This document shows positions 2,543 to 21,498 of a DNA stretch of 22,160 nucleotides, in pieces. Source of the DNA: a virus. The position numbers and the translations under genes are program-made. Under the pieces are notes generated by a model, which ran no database searches, was not told where the DNA came from, and worked only from the letters and a program-made list of their open reading frames with translations. The stretch lies in IMG/VR virus record IMGVR_UViG_3300036846_000646, positions 1 to 22,160 of that record; one strand, 5' to 3'. Every line of letters begins with the position of its first letter. Position 1 is the first letter of the stretch.

Positions 2543-3763
2543 ATGTCGCTGACCGCCACCCCAGTCGGGCCGATGATCACCGGCGCGCGGGCGCGCAGCG
2601 CCATGCCGCCAGGGGTCAACCTGCTCGCCGGTGTCGGGCCCTACGTGGTCGACGCCAGCACGGCCCGCCAGGTGCCCGCCGTCGGCCGGGCCCTCCAGCT
2701 CTACAGCGGCATGTGCAAACAGATGCCCATGGAGGCCTACCGCGGCTACACCCGTCTCGACAACCAGCCGCGGATGCTTTCCCGCCCCGACATGGACAAC
2801 GCCGGTAGTTGGTTCGTCCAGGTCAACGTCGAGGACTACCTGCTCAACGGCAACGCCATCAGCTACGTGACCGCCCGTGGCGCCGACGGCTGGCCGCTGA
2901 GCTCGGTGTGGCTGCCCGTCCAATGGGTCAACATCATGTGGAACTGGTCGGACCCGACCGGTGCGGCGGCGAGCTACTACTACCTGGGGGAGCAGCTCGT
3001 CAACGACGACGTCGTCCACGTCAAGCGCGGGGCGGATCGCTTCTACCCGGTGCGCGGCGTCGGCGTCGTCGAGGAGTACCTCAACACGCTCGACCGCGTG
3101 GCGATGGAGGAGGAGTACGAGCGCGGGGCGCTGGCCAACGGGGCGGTGCCCTCGGCCGCCATCATCACCCCGCAGGCCACGTTGACCCAGGAAGTGGCCG
3201 ACGAGGCCAAGGCGACGTGGATGACCAACTTCAGCGGCCCCGTGCGCGAGCCGGTCATCCTGCCCAACGGCACGGTGATCCAGCCGCTGGCGTGGTCGCC
3301 CACCGACACCCAGCTGTCAGAAGCTCGTCGCCTCTCGCTCATCGACGTGGCGAACATGTTCAACCTCGACGGCTACTGGCTCGGCGCTCCGGTGGCGGGC
3401 ATGACGTACCGCACGGCCGGCCCGCAGTACCAACAGGTCCTGCGCACCAGCCTCGAGCCCTTGCTGGCCGACTTCGAGGACGTCTGGTCCAACGCCTGGC
3501 TGCCGCGCGGCACCACGATCCGCTTCCAGCGCAGCCAACTGCTGAGGGAGGACCTCGCCACGTCCATGACGGCCGCGGTGGCCGGCGTCGCGTCGGGCAT
3601 CATGTCGATCCCAGAGGCCCGCGTGATGGTGGGCCTGCCGCCCCAGACCTTCGGCGCCACCGGTATCACCGCCGACCTCGGCGGCACCTCGACCGCGTCA
3701 CCCGACGACCCCAATGCGCCGCTCGCGCCCGACCAGGGCGAGACGGGAGGAGTCCAGCCATGA
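2543..3763 (+). CDS. Portal protein
   Basis: A 406-aa protein of the HK97/SPP1-like portal type, the dodecameric ring at the head vertex through which DNA passes. It shows the expected order: an N-terminal region with TARQVPAVGRALQLYSG, a conserved GNAISYV segment near residue 110, a clip/stem region, and the helical stretch LIDVANMFNLDGYWLG with the following GMTYRTAGPQ near residue 300. The Pro/Asp-rich C-terminus after about 375 looks disordered. Position after terminase and before the prohead protease agrees with the assignment. The stop overlaps the protease start as ATGA, so the two are probably translationally coupled. ATG 2543 is the first start, and no better Shine-Dalgarno sequence supports a later one. 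Confidence 0.9.
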   Translation: MSLTATPVGPMITGARARSAMPPGVNLLAGVGPYVVDASTARQVPAVGRALQLYSGMCKQMPMEAYRGYTRLDNQPRMLSRPDMDNAGSWFVQVNVEDYLLNGNAISYVTARGADGWPLSSVWLPVQWVNIMWNWSDPTGAAASYYYLGEQLVNDDVVHVKRGADRFYPVRGVGVVEEYLNTLDRVAMEEEYERGALANGAVPSAAIITPQATLTQEVADEAKATWMTNFSGPVREPVILPNGTVIQPLAWSPTDTQLSEARRLSLIDVANMFNLDGYWLGAPVAGMTYRTAGPQYQQVLRTSLEPLLADFEDVWSNAWLPRGTTIRFQRSQLLREDLATSMTAAVAGVASGIMSIPEARVMVGLPPQTFGATGITADLGGTSTASPDDPNAPLAPDQGETGGVQP

Positions 3764-16044: not shown

Positions 16045-16125
16045 GGCCCCGCCCCCCTTAGAACGTCTTTTTGGAGCGCTTTCTAGCCAGACAACTGGGC
16101 GGCATCTTGGGCACGAACCGTGGTT

Positions 16126-16163
16126 TGTGCGGTCGTTGTGCGGTCGTTGTGCGGTCGTTGTGC
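16126..16163. repeat. 11-bp tandem repeat TGTGCGGTCGT, about 3.5 copies
   Basis: TGTGCGGTCGT occurs at 16126-16136, 16137-16147 and 16148-16158, followed by TGTGC. It occupies the 120-nt space between the double-HNH stop (16165) and the integrase start (16044), and is thus upstream of integrase on the minus strand. One repeat per helical turn places the copies on one face of the DNA, as expected for a binding array. Integrase arm sites or an integrase operator are possible. The rest of 16045-16125 shows no gene or clear promoter. Confidence 0.8.
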
Positions 16164-17391: not shown

Positions 17392-17892
17392 GTGCGCAAA
17401 AAACGAACCAGCCAAAAGAGTGCGCTTCTCGAAGATTGCGTGGACACCCTTCGGTTACTGAACTTCAACGACTTCACATACCCAGAGTTCTGCCGGCTTC
17501 CAGAGCTGCCAGAGCGCTACGTGATTCGGAACTATCCGCACGGTTCGATCTACGGCACTCGAGGCAAAAAGGAAGCGCTGATTGTTGTTCACGGTTTGTG
17601 TCCGCCATTCGTCCAGGACGGGGACGGCTGGACCCGGATCGTGATAGAGGCCAAGTGGCAGGAAGTTTCGGGGTCTGTCGATGAGAAGATTCCTTTCGTC
17701 TGGGCGTCCTCTCTGGAATCGCATATTCCGAATTGGATCCTGCTGATGGACGGCCACCATTGGCGGGTTGGTCGAGGCAAGGCAGTAGTCCAATGGGCCC
17801 AACGTCAATCTGCGAGCGAGGGCCGAACGTGGCATGCCATGAATCGGCGGGACTTCCTGTTGAGTGCCAAGGAGTGGTGGGGTGGCCCATAG
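17392..17892 (+). CDS. PD-(D/E)XK-like nuclease, paired with Dam methyltransferase
   Basis: 166 aa from GTG 17392 with GAGGGG just upstream. The core IVIEAKWQEVSGSVDEKIPF (about residues 83-102) contains E-x-K in the PD-(D/E)XK arrangement. The S-G-S-V-D-E-K-x-P continuation is typical of a phage and prophage PD-(D/E)XK family. NWILLMDGHHWRVGRGK (about 114-130) forms the following strand and turn. The preceding acidic position is uncertain. The N-terminal 45 residues are basic then helical. It overlaps the methyltransferase gene by 11 nt. GC falls to about 52-60% in lines sampled by hand here, against about 77% in one capsid-gene line. A restriction-modification pair, or a DNA-processing nuclease, are the two readings. 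Confidence 0.7.
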   Translation: MRKKRTSQKSALLEDCVDTLRLLNFNDFTYPEFCRLPELPERYVIRNYPHGSIYGTRGKKEALIVVHGLCPPFVQDGDGWTRIVIEAKWQEVSGSVDEKIPFVWASSLESHIPNWILLMDGHHWRVGRGKAVVQWAQRQSASEGRTWHAMNRRDFLLSAKEWWGGP

Positions 17893-18829
17893 CAACGGGA
17901 ATCTGCCCGTGCTTCCACCGGCGCCTGGCCCAGGCGAGTCGCGCCAAGTCGTGGTGGCGAGCCAGGCCATGGAGATAGAACGCCAGGTAGCCGCGCAGCT
18001 CGACACTGTTCACGAGGTGGATATGGCGCTGGCATGGCTGGATGGTGCCCGCGCTCTGACCGCCTATCTACGTGACAGGGAGGCTCGAGGGCCGATGCAC
18101 GGTGCCCAGCGCCGCCTGGAAGCCCGGATCGGACAGTTGCTGGGTAAGGCGTCGATGGGGCCCCAAGAGTCTTCTGTCATGACAGAAGACTTGGACAGAA
18201 ATGAACGGCATGAATTCCGGCTAATGCGCCTCGCTCTGGACGGTCGTTTCGACGGCGAAGACTGGTGGGTAAGTCGGCGGGCGATGCTCAGGGCGATTAA
18301 GAATCCGGGAAGCGCCAACGTCACCCGCCATCTGGAACTCACTGGTGAGATCGAGTGGTACACACCCCGTCAATATCTCGATGCGGCGATCGAGGTGATG
18401 GGAGCTATCGAACTGGACCCCGCGTCGTCGGATCGGGCGCAGCAGCACGTGCGGGCCGAGGATTATTTCACTCTCGACAACGACGGATTAACTCAGGCGT
18501 GGCACGGCCGGGTGTTTCTCAATCCGCCCTATCGAATGCCCGACATCAAGAACTTCGTGTTCAAGCTCGCTAAGGCATATGAAACCGGCGAGATTGAAGA
18601 AGGCATTCTGCTCACGAACAGCGCCACGGACACGGAGTGGTTCCACCGGGCCATGACTATGACTTCGGCGCTTTGTTTTACCCGGGGCCGCATCAAGTTT
18701 CTGGAAGCCGGCGAAGAAGAACTGATCGAGCGGCGGACGCCAACCCACGGGCAAGCGTTCTTCTACTTCGGACCGCATAGCCGAAAGTTCCGTTCAGTAT
18801 TTCGGCGTTTCGGAGGTTTCGCCCCATGA
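17882..18829 (+). CDS. Phage Dam-type DNA N6-adenine methyltransferase with helical N-domain
   Basis: 315 aa from GTG 17882, with AAGGAG (17868-17873) eight bases upstream. Residues about 20-90 are a helical module (VDMALAWLDGARALTAYLRD, RRLEARIGQLLG) like those fused to phage adenine methyltransferases and ParB-like proteins. The catalytic domain (about 155-300) follows the phage Dam family: EWYTPRQYLDAAIEVMG, IELDPASSD, then the NPPY motif at about 214-217 (VFLNPPYRMP), and HGQAFFYFGP at the end. It transfers a methyl group from SAM to adenine N6; the target cannot be read. It could protect DNA against the adjacent nuclease or host restriction. A 24-bp perfect palindrome lies within the gene. 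Confidence 0.88.
   Translation: MAHSNGNLPVLPPAPGPGESRQVVVASQAMEIERQVAAQLDTVHEVDMALAWLDGARALTAYLRDREARGPMHGAQRRLEARIGQLLGKASMGPQESSVMTEDLDRNERHEFRLMRLALDGRFDGEDWWVSRRAMLRAIKNPGSANVTRHLELTGEIEWYTPRQYLDAAIEVMGAIELDPASSDRAQQHVRAEDYFTLDNDGLTQAWHGRVFLNPPYRMPDIKNFVFKLAKAYETGEIEEGILLTNSATDTEWFHRAMTMTSALCFTRGRIKFLEAGEEELIERRTPTHGQAFFYFGPHSRKFRSVFRRFGGFAP
18168..18191. repeat. 24-bp perfect palindrome inside the Dam gene
   Basis: AGTCTTCTGTCA at 18168-18179 is followed with no spacer by its exact reverse complement at 18180-18191. It lies in the linker between the helical module and the catalytic domain. A perfect 24-bp palindrome is expected about once per 17 million random bases. TGTCA/TGACA half-sites at its centre suggest a dimeric protein target. 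A second partial half (GACAGAA) follows at 18194. Confidence 0.9.
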
Positions 18830-18936
18830 GCATTTACGTCGTGGATGCCGTGTTCGGTGGTTTCGCTCTCGGTGTCTTTTACTCATTGCTCGTCTGGCAC
18901 TACTTCGGCCCTGACCGAGAACGGAGAAGACATTGA
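18826..18936 (+). CDS. 36-aa single-pass membrane microprotein
   Basis: The ATG overlaps the Dam stop (ATGA), and the TGA overlaps the TTG of the next gene. The peptide has a hydrophobic stretch (IYVVDAVFGGFALGVFYSLL) followed by WHYFGPDRERRRH. The strongly basic C-terminus predicts one transmembrane helix with a cytoplasmic tail. Codon use is less GC3-biased than in the structural genes, like the two genes before it. No family is recognised. Its position in the nuclease-methyltransferase module makes a superinfection or defence-related role possible but unproven. Confidence 0.6.
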   Translation: MSIYVVDAVFGGFALGVFYSLLVWHYFGPDRERRRH

Positions 18937-19700
18937 CCGAGGTCATCACCCCCGCCGGCGAGATCGTCGCCGTCCCGGCCACCCGCCCCGACTTACTTTC
19001 TGCCGCCCCCGTCGCCGACGCCGTCGCCCTGCAGAAGGCTTTCCACGACCTTTCGGCCGCCCTGCTCGACAAGAGCGACTACCAGCGCATCGGCGGCAAG
19101 GAGTACAAGACCAAGAGCGCCTGGCGCAAGCTGGCCGCCGCCTTCAACGTGTCCGACGAGATCGTCGAGAAGGTCTACGACCGCGACCCCGAATCCGGCC
19201 GCATCATCCGCGCCGAGTTCACCGTCCGCGCCACCGCACCGAACGGACGATCGACGGTCGGGGTCGGGCTGGCGTCGGTCTTCGAGCGCCACTTTTCCAA
19301 CCCCGAACACGACCTGCCGGCCACCGCCCACACCCGGGCGAAGTCGAGGGCGTTCTCGGACCTGTTCGGGCTGGGCGAGGTCTCGGCCGAGGAGATGGAC
19401 GACCAGCCGGTGACGTCGGGCATCGGGCGTAAGCGGTCCTCGCCGCCGCGTCGGCGGGACACGGGCGACGAGAACCACGGCGAGGGTAGTGGCGATGCCG
19501 GGCTGGCCAAAGGCGTCGTCGAGCTCGAGGCGCGTCTCATGGACCTGGACCCGCCGTATCGCACCGCCTTCAAGGACTGGCGTCGCGCCGCCAACATGGA
19601 ATGGCCGCCCGCAACGCTGCGCGATTTCGCCGCCATGGCGGCCAGGATCGGCCAGCTCGAAGAAGAAGCCGCATTGGACGCCGACACCTACGACGGATGA
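18933..19700 (+). CDS. Rad52/Erf-type single-strand annealing protein candidate
   Basis: 255 aa from TTG 18933, with GGAGAAG shortly upstream. The core, about residues 38-160, has LLDKSDYQRIGGKEYKTKSA followed by WRKLAAAFNVSDEIVE, then RAEFTVRATAPNGRSTVGVG, and the conserved ending TAHTRAKSRAFSDLFGLGEV. The K-S-A-W-R-K-L, A-P-N-G-R and T-R-A-K-x-R-A-x-x-D-L elements are those of a widespread phage/prophage group related to Rad52/Erf annealing proteins. It would promote recombination or circularisation of incoming DNA. The 80-residue C-terminus after an Arg/Asp/Gly linker is a separate helical domain, possibly contacting a partner. High-GC codon use resumes here. Confidence 0.72.
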   Translation: MTEVITPAGEIVAVPATRPDLLSAAPVADAVALQKAFHDLSAALLDKSDYQRIGGKEYKTKSAWRKLAAAFNVSDEIVEKVYDRDPESGRIIRAEFTVRATAPNGRSTVGVGLASVFERHFSNPEHDLPATAHTRAKSRAFSDLFGLGEVSAEEMDDQPVTSGIGRKRSSPPRRRDTGDENHGEGSGDAGLAKGVVELEARLMDLDPPYRTAFKDWRRAANMEWPPATLRDFAAMAARIGQLEEEAALDADTYDG

Positions 19701-19861
19701 TCTGTCCGGTCTGCCACAGCGAGTTGGACCTGGCCCTGGTCAACATGACCGGCACCCCCGACATCGTCGCCACTGTCAGACAGGCGTGGCAGGACGCCGA
19801 GGAGGCGGCTTTGCTGCGCGAGGCCCAGCGGGGTGAGAACCAGGACGACGCGGGCTGGTGA
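19697..19861 (+). CDS. Small CxxC protein of unknown function
   Basis: 54 aa; ATGA overlap with the previous stop and GTGA overlap with the next start. It begins MICPVCHSELDLAL, a single CxxC that would need a partner to bind zinc, followed by an amphipathic, acidic helix (VRQAWQDAEEAALLREAQRG). Tight coupling to the annealing protein and replication protein genes suggests a replication or recombination accessory. No family is recognised. Confidence 0.6.
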   Translation: MICPVCHSELDLALVNMTGTPDIVATVRQAWQDAEEAALLREAQRGENQDDAGW

Positions 19862-20376
19862 GTCACAACGCCAACGCCGCTGTCTGGGCCTTCTGCGACC
19901 CGGCATTGACACCGATCCAACTGTTAGTCCTCGTCGCCTTGGCCGACTACGCGAACCCTGACACGGCGCTGTTGTGGCCGTCGCTCGACAATGTCGCCCG
20001 CCGGTGTCATCTGTCTCGCTCGACCGTGAAACGAGCAATCGCTGAACTTGAAGCAACCCGGCAGATCGAACGTGTGCAACGGGGAGGGCGAGCCGGGCAC
20101 GACACGAACGTCTTCCGGTTCTGCCTTGTGGACAACCTGGGGGTTAGGGGGTTCACAGTGACCCCCCAGGGGGTTCAGCGACGACCGGTAGGGGGTTCAC
20201 TGACGGCCGTTAGGCAGTTCACTGGTGAACCACAAAACAGAATTAACCCGAATGAACCTCGCGCGCGCGCGCGCGCGAGGGACGAACCCGCGCCGATGCC
20301 CGATCCAAAGGAACTGGCCAACCGGATCGCGGATCTCCGGACCCGCATCGGTCGCCCTAACCGAGGGCCGGCATGA
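19858..20376 (+). CDS. Winged-helix replication initiator candidate (HTH_36-like)
   Basis: 172 aa from GTG 19858. Residues about 17-90 form a winged-helix domain: LTPIQLLVLVALADYANPDT, then LLWPSLDNVARRCHLSRSTV with the recognition helix SRSTVKRAIAELE, and a wing ending THDTNVFRF-like (GHDTNVFRFCL). The A-L-A-D-x-A-N...W-P-S-x-x-x-x-A pattern is typical of phage replication organisers and plasmid initiators of the helix_turn_helix_36 group. The second half is low complexity and carries the iterons, an AT-rich stretch and a (CG)9 tract that encodes alternating Arg-Ala. Initiator gene and origin would then coincide, as with lambda O. It could instead be only a regulator. Confidence 0.72.
   Translation: MSHNANAAVWAFCDPALTPIQLLVLVALADYANPDTALLWPSLDNVARRCHLSRSTVKRAIAELEATRQIERVQRGGRAGHDTNVFRFCLVDNLGVRGFTVTPQGVQRRPVGGSLTAVRQFTGEPQNRINPNEPRARARARDEPAPMPDPKELANRIADLRTRIGRPNRGPA
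20146..20233 (+). other. Putative replication origin: four 22-bp iterons
   Basis: AGGGGGTTCA starts at 20146, 20168 and 20190, and AGGCAGTTCA at 20212, exactly 22 bp apart. The fourth copy continues as the perfect palindrome GTTCAC-TG-GTGAAC (20217-20230). Because 22 is not a multiple of three, the protein sequence does not repeat, so selection acts on DNA. Bases 20231-20256, immediately after, are 17 of 26 A/T in an otherwise very GC-rich gene, a candidate unwinding element. The layout is that of the lambda origin, with iterons then AT-rich DNA inside the initiator gene. Confidence 0.7.
20257..20280. repeat. (CG)9 tract inside a 24-bp palindrome
   Basis: CCT-(CG)9-AGG is perfectly self-complementary. 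The 18-bp alternating CG tract (20260-20277) is a classic sequence for Z-DNA or cruciform extrusion. It follows the AT-rich segment next to the iterons and encodes RARARARD in the initiator candidate. It may help strand opening or simply be slippage-derived low complexity. Confidence 0.85.
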
Positions 20377-20624
20377 GCCACGACGACGCCCCGGTCGAGA
20401 AGCACGCCGAGAACCGCGCCACCCTCGAGCTCGAGCGCCGGCTCGACGCCCTGAAGGCCGCCATGACGCGCCGCGAATGGGACCGCGTCGAGTGGCACTT
20501 CGACCGCGTCCGCAAGGCCATCCAGGCGCTCGAGCGCGCCGAGATGGGCCAAGAAGCCGCCGACCAGCCGTTCGGCTTCTACCAGTACCTCCACGACAAG
20601 GCGCGGGGGCGCTACAGCCGGTGA
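20373..20624 (+). CDS. Helical 83-aa protein of unknown function
   Basis: ATGA overlap with the previous stop and GTGA overlap with the next start. The sequence is almost entirely charged helix: ATLELERRLDALKAAMTRRE, WDRVEWHFDRVRKAIQALER, then a short aromatic segment FGFYQYLHDKARGR. No zinc or nuclease motif. Position after the replication protein suggests a small replication or DNA-handling accessory, which is inference only. Confidence 0.6.
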   Translation: MSHDDAPVEKHAENRATLELERRLDALKAAMTRREWDRVEWHFDRVRKAIQALERAEMGQEAADQPFGFYQYLHDKARGRYSR

Positions 20625-20782
20625 GCGAGCACGTATGGGCAACCGACCGCTGCCCTGACTGCGCCGCCAAAGACGCACAGATCGAGCGGCTGCGGACTGA
20701 GATAGAGCGGCTGACCGCACAACGGGATCGGCATCTCCGCGTGATCGCCGCCCTCGCCCCACCAATACAGGAGAAGCCGTGA
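20621..20782 (+). CDS. Small CPDC coiled-coil protein
   Basis: 53 aa from GTG 20621 (GTGA overlap). One CxxC (CPDC, about residues 11-14) is followed by a heptad-like helix (KDAQIERLRTEIERLTAQRD) and the ending APPIQEKP. The zinc-knuckle-plus-coiled-coil layout suggests a small oligomerising DNA or protein binder. Its 3' end contains the left 23-bp repeat that flanks the cytosine methyltransferase gene. Confidence 0.6.
   Translation: MSEHVWATDRCPDCAAKDAQIERLRTEIERLTAQRDRHLRVIAALAPPIQEKP
20760..20782 (+). repeat. Left copy of 23-bp direct repeat flanking the C5 methyltransferase
   Basis: Matches 21476-21498 at 22 of 23 bases (mismatch at 20765/21481), 716 bp apart. Each copy contains the ribosome binding site CAGGAG and a GTGA stop/start overlap, so the repeats bracket the methyltransferase gene exactly. 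Confidence 0.9.
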
Positions 20783-21498
20783 CGCGGCCGAGACTGCTCG
20801 ACCTGTTCTGCGGCGCAGGCGGTGCGGCGATGGGCTACCACCGCGCCGGGTTCGACGTGGTGGGCGTGGACATCGAGCCCCAGCCGCACTACCCGTTCGA
20901 GTTCGTCCAAGCGGACGCGCTCGAGGTGCTTGATGGCACTTTCTGGGCTCCCGGGTTGGGGTTCGATGGTGACGACTTCGACGCCATCCACGCCAGCCCG
21001 CCGTGCCAGCACTTCTCCACGATGGGCAACCGCTCACGGGCCGAGGACAAGCGCAAGACGCCTACCGTCGATCTGCTGACGCCCACGCTCGAGCTGCTGG
21101 CGGGTATCGACCTGCCCTGGGTGGTCGAGAACGTCGCGGGTGCCAAACGGTCGATGCCCAACTACTTCGTGCTCTCAGGCGGCCAGTTCGGGCTAGGTGT
21201 TCACCGGCCGCGCTACTTCGTGTCCAACGTGCTCATTATGACGCCGCCGCGGAGCAAGCCTCCCAAGCACGGCATCGGCGTCTACGGCCGGGACCACGAC
21301 GGACGGCGGCTGTTCAACCGCAAGTCGAACGGCACCTATCGGGCACCACGCTCGCTCGAGGAGGCCCAAGAGGCGATGGGCATGGATTGGGCCGACTGGC
21401 ACGGCACCAAGGAAGCGATCCCACCGGCATATTCGGAATGGATCGGCGCCCAACTTCTGCGACATCTGTCGCTGGCACCAGTACAGGAGAAGCCGTGA
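20779..21498 (+). CDS. DNA cytosine-C5 methyltransferase
   Basis: 239 aa from a GTG overlapping the previous stop, with CAGGAG upstream. It methylates carbon 5 of cytosine using SAM. Visible motifs are I (DLFCGAGGAAMGYHRAGF, with GVDIE following), IV with the nucleophile Cys76 (ASPPCQHFS), VI (WVVENVAGAK, Glu117), VIII (HRPRYF) and the C-terminal X-like AYSEWIGAQLL. The protein is short for the family (usually over 300 aa), leaving only about 80 residues between motifs VIII and X for target recognition. Target not predictable. It probably masks phage DNA from host restriction. No cognate endonuclease is adjacent. It is bracketed by direct repeats, suggesting cassette gain. Confidence 0.9.
   Translation: MTRPRLLDLFCGAGGAAMGYHRAGFDVVGVDIEPQPHYPFEFVQADALEVLDGTFWAPGLGFDGDDFDAIHASPPCQHFSTMGNRSRAEDKRKTPTVDLLTPTLELLAGIDLPWVVENVAGAKRSMPNYFVLSGGQFGLGVHRPRYFVSNVLIMTPPRSKPPKHGIGVYGRDHDGRRLFNRKSNGTYRAPRSLEEAQEAMGMDWADWHGTKEAIPPAYSEWIGAQLLRHLSLAPVQEKP
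21476..21498 (+). repeat. Right copy of 23-bp direct repeat flanking the C5 methyltransferase
   Basis: Partner of 20760-20782. It includes the end of the methyltransferase (VQEKP and stop) and the GTG of the next gene. The protein ends on both sides are similar, IQEKP and VQEKP. Confidence 0.9.

Follow-up and report, generated by a model that had tools for sequence, protein, structure and literature searches.

The window, a 22,160-nucleotide stretch of viral DNA comprising positions 1 to 22,160 of IMG/VR record IMGVR_UViG_3300036846_000646, contains a gene encoding a 172-aa protein, within which lie four direct repeats (iterons), an AT-rich stretch and a palindrome of alternating C and G (Table 1). 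The protein was matched by the Pfam family PF13730 HTH_36 (E = 1.3e-12; 47.7 bits against a cutoff of 25) and by the PHROG families phrog_270 (3e-15), phrog_391 "replication initiation O-like" (8e-14) and phrog_1032; the Pfam match above the cutoff together with a replication-initiation PHROG places it among the HTH_36 phage replication initiators. An AlphaFold2 model of the protein contained helices at residues 3-12, 19-30, 43-50 and 54-66, strands at residues 70-73 and 85-88 and a helix at residues 150-160, corresponding to a winged helix that extends to about residue 88, followed by a low-confidence stretch and then one helix. The overall pLDDT was 62, with values below 50 over most of residues 95-142. 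Foldseek comparison of the model with the PDB returned weak generic matches, mostly to winged-helix DNA-binding proteins and none at E ≤ 0.001, and a search of solved structures by sequence yielded nothing useful. The iterons, the AT-rich stretch and the CG tract all encode the low-confidence linker, which is predicted to be disordered.

Table 1. Features of the initiator gene and the adjoining open reading frame in the window
Feature	Position	Strand	Remarks
Replication initiator gene	19858..20376	+	GTG start, 172 aa; winged helix N-terminal, disordered linker, short C-terminal helix
HTH_36 domain, proposed iteron-binding domain	19906..20055	+	Residues 17-66; Pfam match and model
Iteron 1, AGGGGGTTCAC	20146..20156	+	Inverted half-site GTGACCCCC; dyad 20147-20166
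Iteron 2, AGGGGGTTCAG	20168..20178	+	
Iteron 3, AGGGGGTTCAC	20190..20200	+	
Iteron 4, AGGCAGTTCAC, degenerate	20212..20222	+	Dyad GTTCAC-TG-GTGAAC at 20217-20230
AT-rich stretch, proposed unwinding element	20234..20259	+	26 bp, 3' of the iterons
Perfect palindrome CCT(CG)9AGG	20257..20280	.	24 bp, alternating C/G; directly 3' of the AT-rich stretch
Next ORF	20373..20624	+	83 aa; overlaps initiator stop codon; without family match

No helicase loader or helicase gene was recognised next to the initiator gene in this possibly incomplete contig, and comparison of the downstream ORF with the "helicase loader" of Gingerbug gave no clear similarity (E = 0.025). ORFs for a Dam-type adenine methyltransferase and a C5 cytosine methyltransferase (17864-18829 and 20779-21498) flank the replication module. 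The 255-aa ORF upstream of the initiator gene (18933-19700) has a weak PHROG match only, to a family of unassigned function, and judged by eye it is possibly a recombination protein. At 16125-16163, the 11-mer TTGTGCGGTCG is repeated perfectly in tandem (3.5 copies), next to the end of a minus-strand ORF that resembles an HNH endonuclease. The host of the phage is probably actinobacterial, consistent with a terminase whose closest counterparts by sequence are those of small Rhodococcus and Gordonia phages.

The iterons have the consensus AGGGGGTTCA(C/G) and a start-to-start spacing of exactly 22 bp. Iterons 1-3 are identical over 10 bp and iteron 4 contains two mismatches; within the whole window, the first three iteron sites are the sole matches to the exact 10-mer AGGGGGTTCA. 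Since the 22-bp period is not a multiple of three, the iterons occupy frames 0, 1 and 2. The best four-copy 11-mer score in the initiator gene was 41 out of 44, against a mean of 33.7 and a maximum of 36 in 60 synonymous-codon shuffles and a maximum of 34 in 60 codon-order shuffles. A second, independent repeat score reached 38, against a maximum of 34 among 100 synonymous shuffles, and TRF likewise listed the 22-bp array. The array therefore goes beyond chance, and neither codon usage nor the protein sequence accounts for it, because it scored higher than every synonymous-codon shuffle. The outer two iterons form dyads and the inner two do not, both in the window and in its closest relative (described below): the dyad scores of iterons 1 and 4 were at or above the 95th percentile of random 22-mers, and those of iterons 2 and 3 were below it.

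The AT content of the stretch that follows the iterons is 65%, compared with 32% in the window (the contig is 68% GC). Equally AT-rich 26-bp windows make up 0.06% of all those in the contig, and among the 26-bp windows within 19850-20780 this stretch ties for the lowest GC content. An AT maximum thus adjoins the array. The (CG)9 palindrome next to it might adopt a Z-DNA or cruciform structure, or might reflect slippage in a coding stretch for RARARAR. The initial annotation, made from the letters alone, had reported four repeats 22 bp apart starting at 20146, 20168, 20190 and 20212, a 26-bp AT-rich stretch directly after them, and a winged-helix replication protein gene enclosing both. The coordinates and the spacing proved exact, and the scores against shuffles, the AT content and the domain matches bore out the rest; the dyads at iterons 1 and 4 and the palindrome had gone unmentioned there.

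A search for relatives found a single close one, the IMG/VR contig IMGVR_UViG_3300036846_001084 (L002/L041, hereafter L002), which encodes an initiator with 71% aa identity and a terminase with 69% identity to those of the window, both at matching places on the contig. L002 shares with the window the four iterons, the AT-rich stretch and the CG tract. Its iterons read AAGGGGGTCA and are spaced by 31, 22 and 22 bp, the interval between iterons 1 and 2 being 9 bp longer than in the window. In the codon alignment, each of the four L002 copies departs from its window counterpart by two substitutions, G to A and T to G, in the same columns every time; the two shared substitutions hit different codon positions and alter different residues, and the iterons are more alike within one phage than are the orthologous copies between the two. 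In the iteron block, aa identity between the phages is 0.48 and third-position identity is 0.81, whereas in the HTH domain the corresponding values are 0.81 and 0.61 (Fisher p = 0.003 for aa and p = 0.04 for third positions). With a third-position p value of only 0.04, more weight falls on the parallel changes. The same changes in every L002 copy and third bases better conserved than the amino acids indicate that the repeats are kept as DNA, in agreement with the initial annotation, which had argued as much from a period that is not a multiple of three and had proposed comparing iteron bases with codons in homologues; the one close relative found that retains the protein also retains the repeats. 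Over 20222-20262, the two phages are 92% identical in nucleotide sequence, and the L002 counterpart of the palindrome (about 3416-3437) is a 22-bp near-palindrome in which 6 bp are missing and the alternating purine-pyrimidine tract is kept.

Wider searches were largely negative. A DNA-pattern search around the AT/CG junction recovered the sister phage, the other 15 matches being chance; the phage collection contained no DNA-level relatives of the window; and GTDB genomes contained no close protein relatives, with a distant Nonomuraea locus as the sole match. In the stretches viewed of small Gordonia and Rhodococcus phages with a related terminase, no replication initiator was annotated, judged by annotation only.

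We compared the locus with known phage origins. That lambdoid origins lie midway within gene O is well established (PMC7466680). Like the window, lambda has four direct repeats halfway along its initiator gene, spaced by 20-24 bp, spread over the three frames and directly followed 3' by an AT-rich stretch. Two features of a lambda-type origin, at least three direct repeats about two helical turns apart inside an initiator gene and an AT-rich stretch directly 3' of them, are found in the window, the latter by AT content with unwinding itself predicted. The iteron sequences differ between the two. Bacillus phage SPP1 provides a second parallel: its oriL, located inside gene 38 and bound by gp38, contains direct repeats and a DNA unwinding element (PMC6316719), like the repeats and the AT-rich element in the window. 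A difference is that SPP1 has a second origin, oriR; the likeness is drawn at the level of layout.

The initial annotation had described the locus as a copy of the lambda gene O/ori arrangement in an unrelated actinobacterial-type phage whose initiator has another fold. The layout stood, and the claim of an unrelated initiator was not supported. Lambda O belongs to PF04492 Phage_rep_O and the window protein to PF13730, with no match to PF04492; because the two families are distinct in Pfam, the window protein is not classed in the lambda O family. Ending at residue 172, it also gave no match to the O-type C-terminal domain, which is represented by phrog_2357 and by the C-terminal portion of phrog_277. 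However, the lambda O C-terminal domain is present in the HTH_36 initiators of L113 and of Arthrobacter phage KellEzio (gp40), with identities of 41% over 113 aa and 35% over 60 aa, respectively, and two PHROG profiles, phrog_345 and phrog_678, have matches in the N-terminal regions of lambda O and of the window protein alike. Comparison of the HTH_36 profile with the single lambda O sequence was uninformative, so N-terminal kinship with lambda O rests on the shared PHROG profiles.

Nor is the likeness to lambda isolated: the arrangement recurred among HTH_36 initiator genes of several phyla. Initiators of the phrog_391/phrog_270 type, among them those of phages KellEzio, Pam5, PseuP_222 and Riah and of an Arsenophonus plasmid, share the order seen in the window: the HTH_36 domain, then iterons mostly 21-24 bp apart, then an AT-rich stretch. 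They are about 30-43% identical to the window protein over the matched N-terminal part and differ from it in length, most having 200-325 aa, and in the O-like C-terminal domain of KellEzio and L113. We surveyed 42 genes, HTH_36-type genes plus lambda O, and as controls 41 ORFs, each the longest neighbour at one of these loci; a gene passed if its best 11-mer repeat score exceeded all 60 synonymous shuffles and at least one spacing was 20-25 bp. We found that 24 of the 42 genes passed, compared with 0 of the 41 controls; some of the genes are related, so these are not counts of independent events, and seven actinobacterial loci (duplicates, truncated genes and evident non-initiators) had been left out by a choice made after the scores were seen. 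The annotated ori iterons in lambda gene O, the positive control, were retrieved by the same scan. The passing genes belong to phages and prophages of Actinobacteria and Gammaproteobacteria. Their spacings are most often 21-24 bp, and in 20 of the 24 the copies occupy more than one frame. For the majority of 15 arrays inspected, the 30 bp with the highest or nearly highest AT content in the gene start no further than 60 bp 3' of the repeats. Cyanophage Pam5, with spacings of 21, 22 and 23 bp, exceeded 100 shuffles in one run and equalled the shuffle maximum in the other. Since several genes failed, including those of SI8, Gingerbug, L130 and L141, the layout is common and not universal; a scan with the N-terminal fragment of KellEzio found nothing. 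Searches of the open-access literature found no paper that treats an origin inside the gene as the general case among HTH_36 initiators. These sequence comparisons suggest that an intragenic origin layout is common in the HTH_36 initiator family and is not a one-off.

Many relatives carry a second type of repeat, short GAACC(A/G)GTCA-like copies about 12 bp apart, in the AT-rich stretch 3' of the iterons. Such repeats were present in L034, L070, L113, L144, L156 and HTH_36 genes related to these, in some cases in two reading frames, and PseuP_222 and its relatives contain GAACCAGTCA in two frames. In the 80 bp after the array in 23 lineage representatives, GAACC occurred 33 times against 19.7 expected from synonymous shuffles (maximum of 27 in 300), and CAGTCA occurred 11 times against 1.5 expected. 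The doubled motif lay inside an HTH_36 ORF, at a near-fixed distance, at 72 of 80 viral loci, which are mostly close relatives. The window contains GAACC alone, at 20227, 20254 and 20284, which is by itself little informative. We regard this second repeat, a pattern read from sequence, as a lead rather than a result; it might act as a single-strand signal that is recognised by the initiator or during helicase loading.

We consider it highly likely that the region is a theta-type replication origin inside the initiator gene, with the iterons bound by the gene's own product, the AT-rich stretch opened and the helicase loaded there. From the arrangement of the features we infer the following steps. 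The protein would bind the four iterons through its N-terminal winged helix, whose 22-bp spacing would place them on one face of the helix, and the resulting nucleoprotein array would strain and open the adjoining AT-rich stretch, where the replicative helicase would be loaded. The iterons would lie in the linker-coding part because the linker tolerates sequence change. With an O-type C-terminal domain and a recognisable loader both missing, recruitment of the helicase must come either from the short C-terminal helix or from an unrecognised or missing gene. A switch in GC skew near 20.2 kb, which the initial annotation had suggested looking for, was not found; the global minimum lies at 13.9 kb, in what is a weak test on a small and possibly incomplete contig.

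An improbable alternative is that the repeats are operators, through which the protein binds within its own gene and blocks transcription as a form of autoregulation, with no role in initiation. The resemblance of the HTH_36 binding domain to transcriptional regulators and the half-site dyads at iterons 1 and 4 would agree with this, and a dual use would be possible. However, for an operator it would be unusual to consist of four phased copies some 290 bp inside a gene and to be followed by the AT maximum of that gene, this order of elements recurs across phyla in proteins classed as replication initiators, and the precedents of lambda O and SPP1 gp38 are origins. Iteron-like arrays also serve in packaging, partition and recombination in phages and plasmids, and the adjoining perfect CG palindrome is without explanation; that the array is another such cis-acting site, located in the initiator gene by chance, nevertheless seems quite unlikely, as the array follows the HTH_36 initiator gene across distant phages (24-25 of 42 genes against 0-1 of 41 controls) and a GGT(T)CA-like half-site is common to several related initiator genes. 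That a linker motif was duplicated in tandem at the protein level, without any DNA function, would fit a disordered linker and the in-frame 15-bp repeats of some relatives such as SfIV, but it is scarcely credible here, being already contradicted by the spread of the copies over three frames, the divergence of amino acids with third bases kept and the same base changes in every L002 copy.

For the window itself, an origin within the initiator gene would be an ordinary finding. More broadly, we tentatively raise the possibility, which we think plausible though not probable, that intragenic iteron origins are both ancestral and general to the HTH_36/lambda-O initiator superfamily across bacterial phyla and carry a two-part code: iterons about 22 bp apart that evolve in step with the initiator and, in the unwinding stretch, a second, strand-specific repeat of the GAACC type at intervals of about 12 bp. 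For many uncultured phages, the layout would provide a rule for finding the origin: the HTH_36 linker, repeats 21-24 bp apart and then the most AT-rich stretch of the gene. A DNA site that is under selection within a coding linker and whose copies have all changed in parallel between sister phages would also be a tractable case of coevolution between an initiator and its origin.
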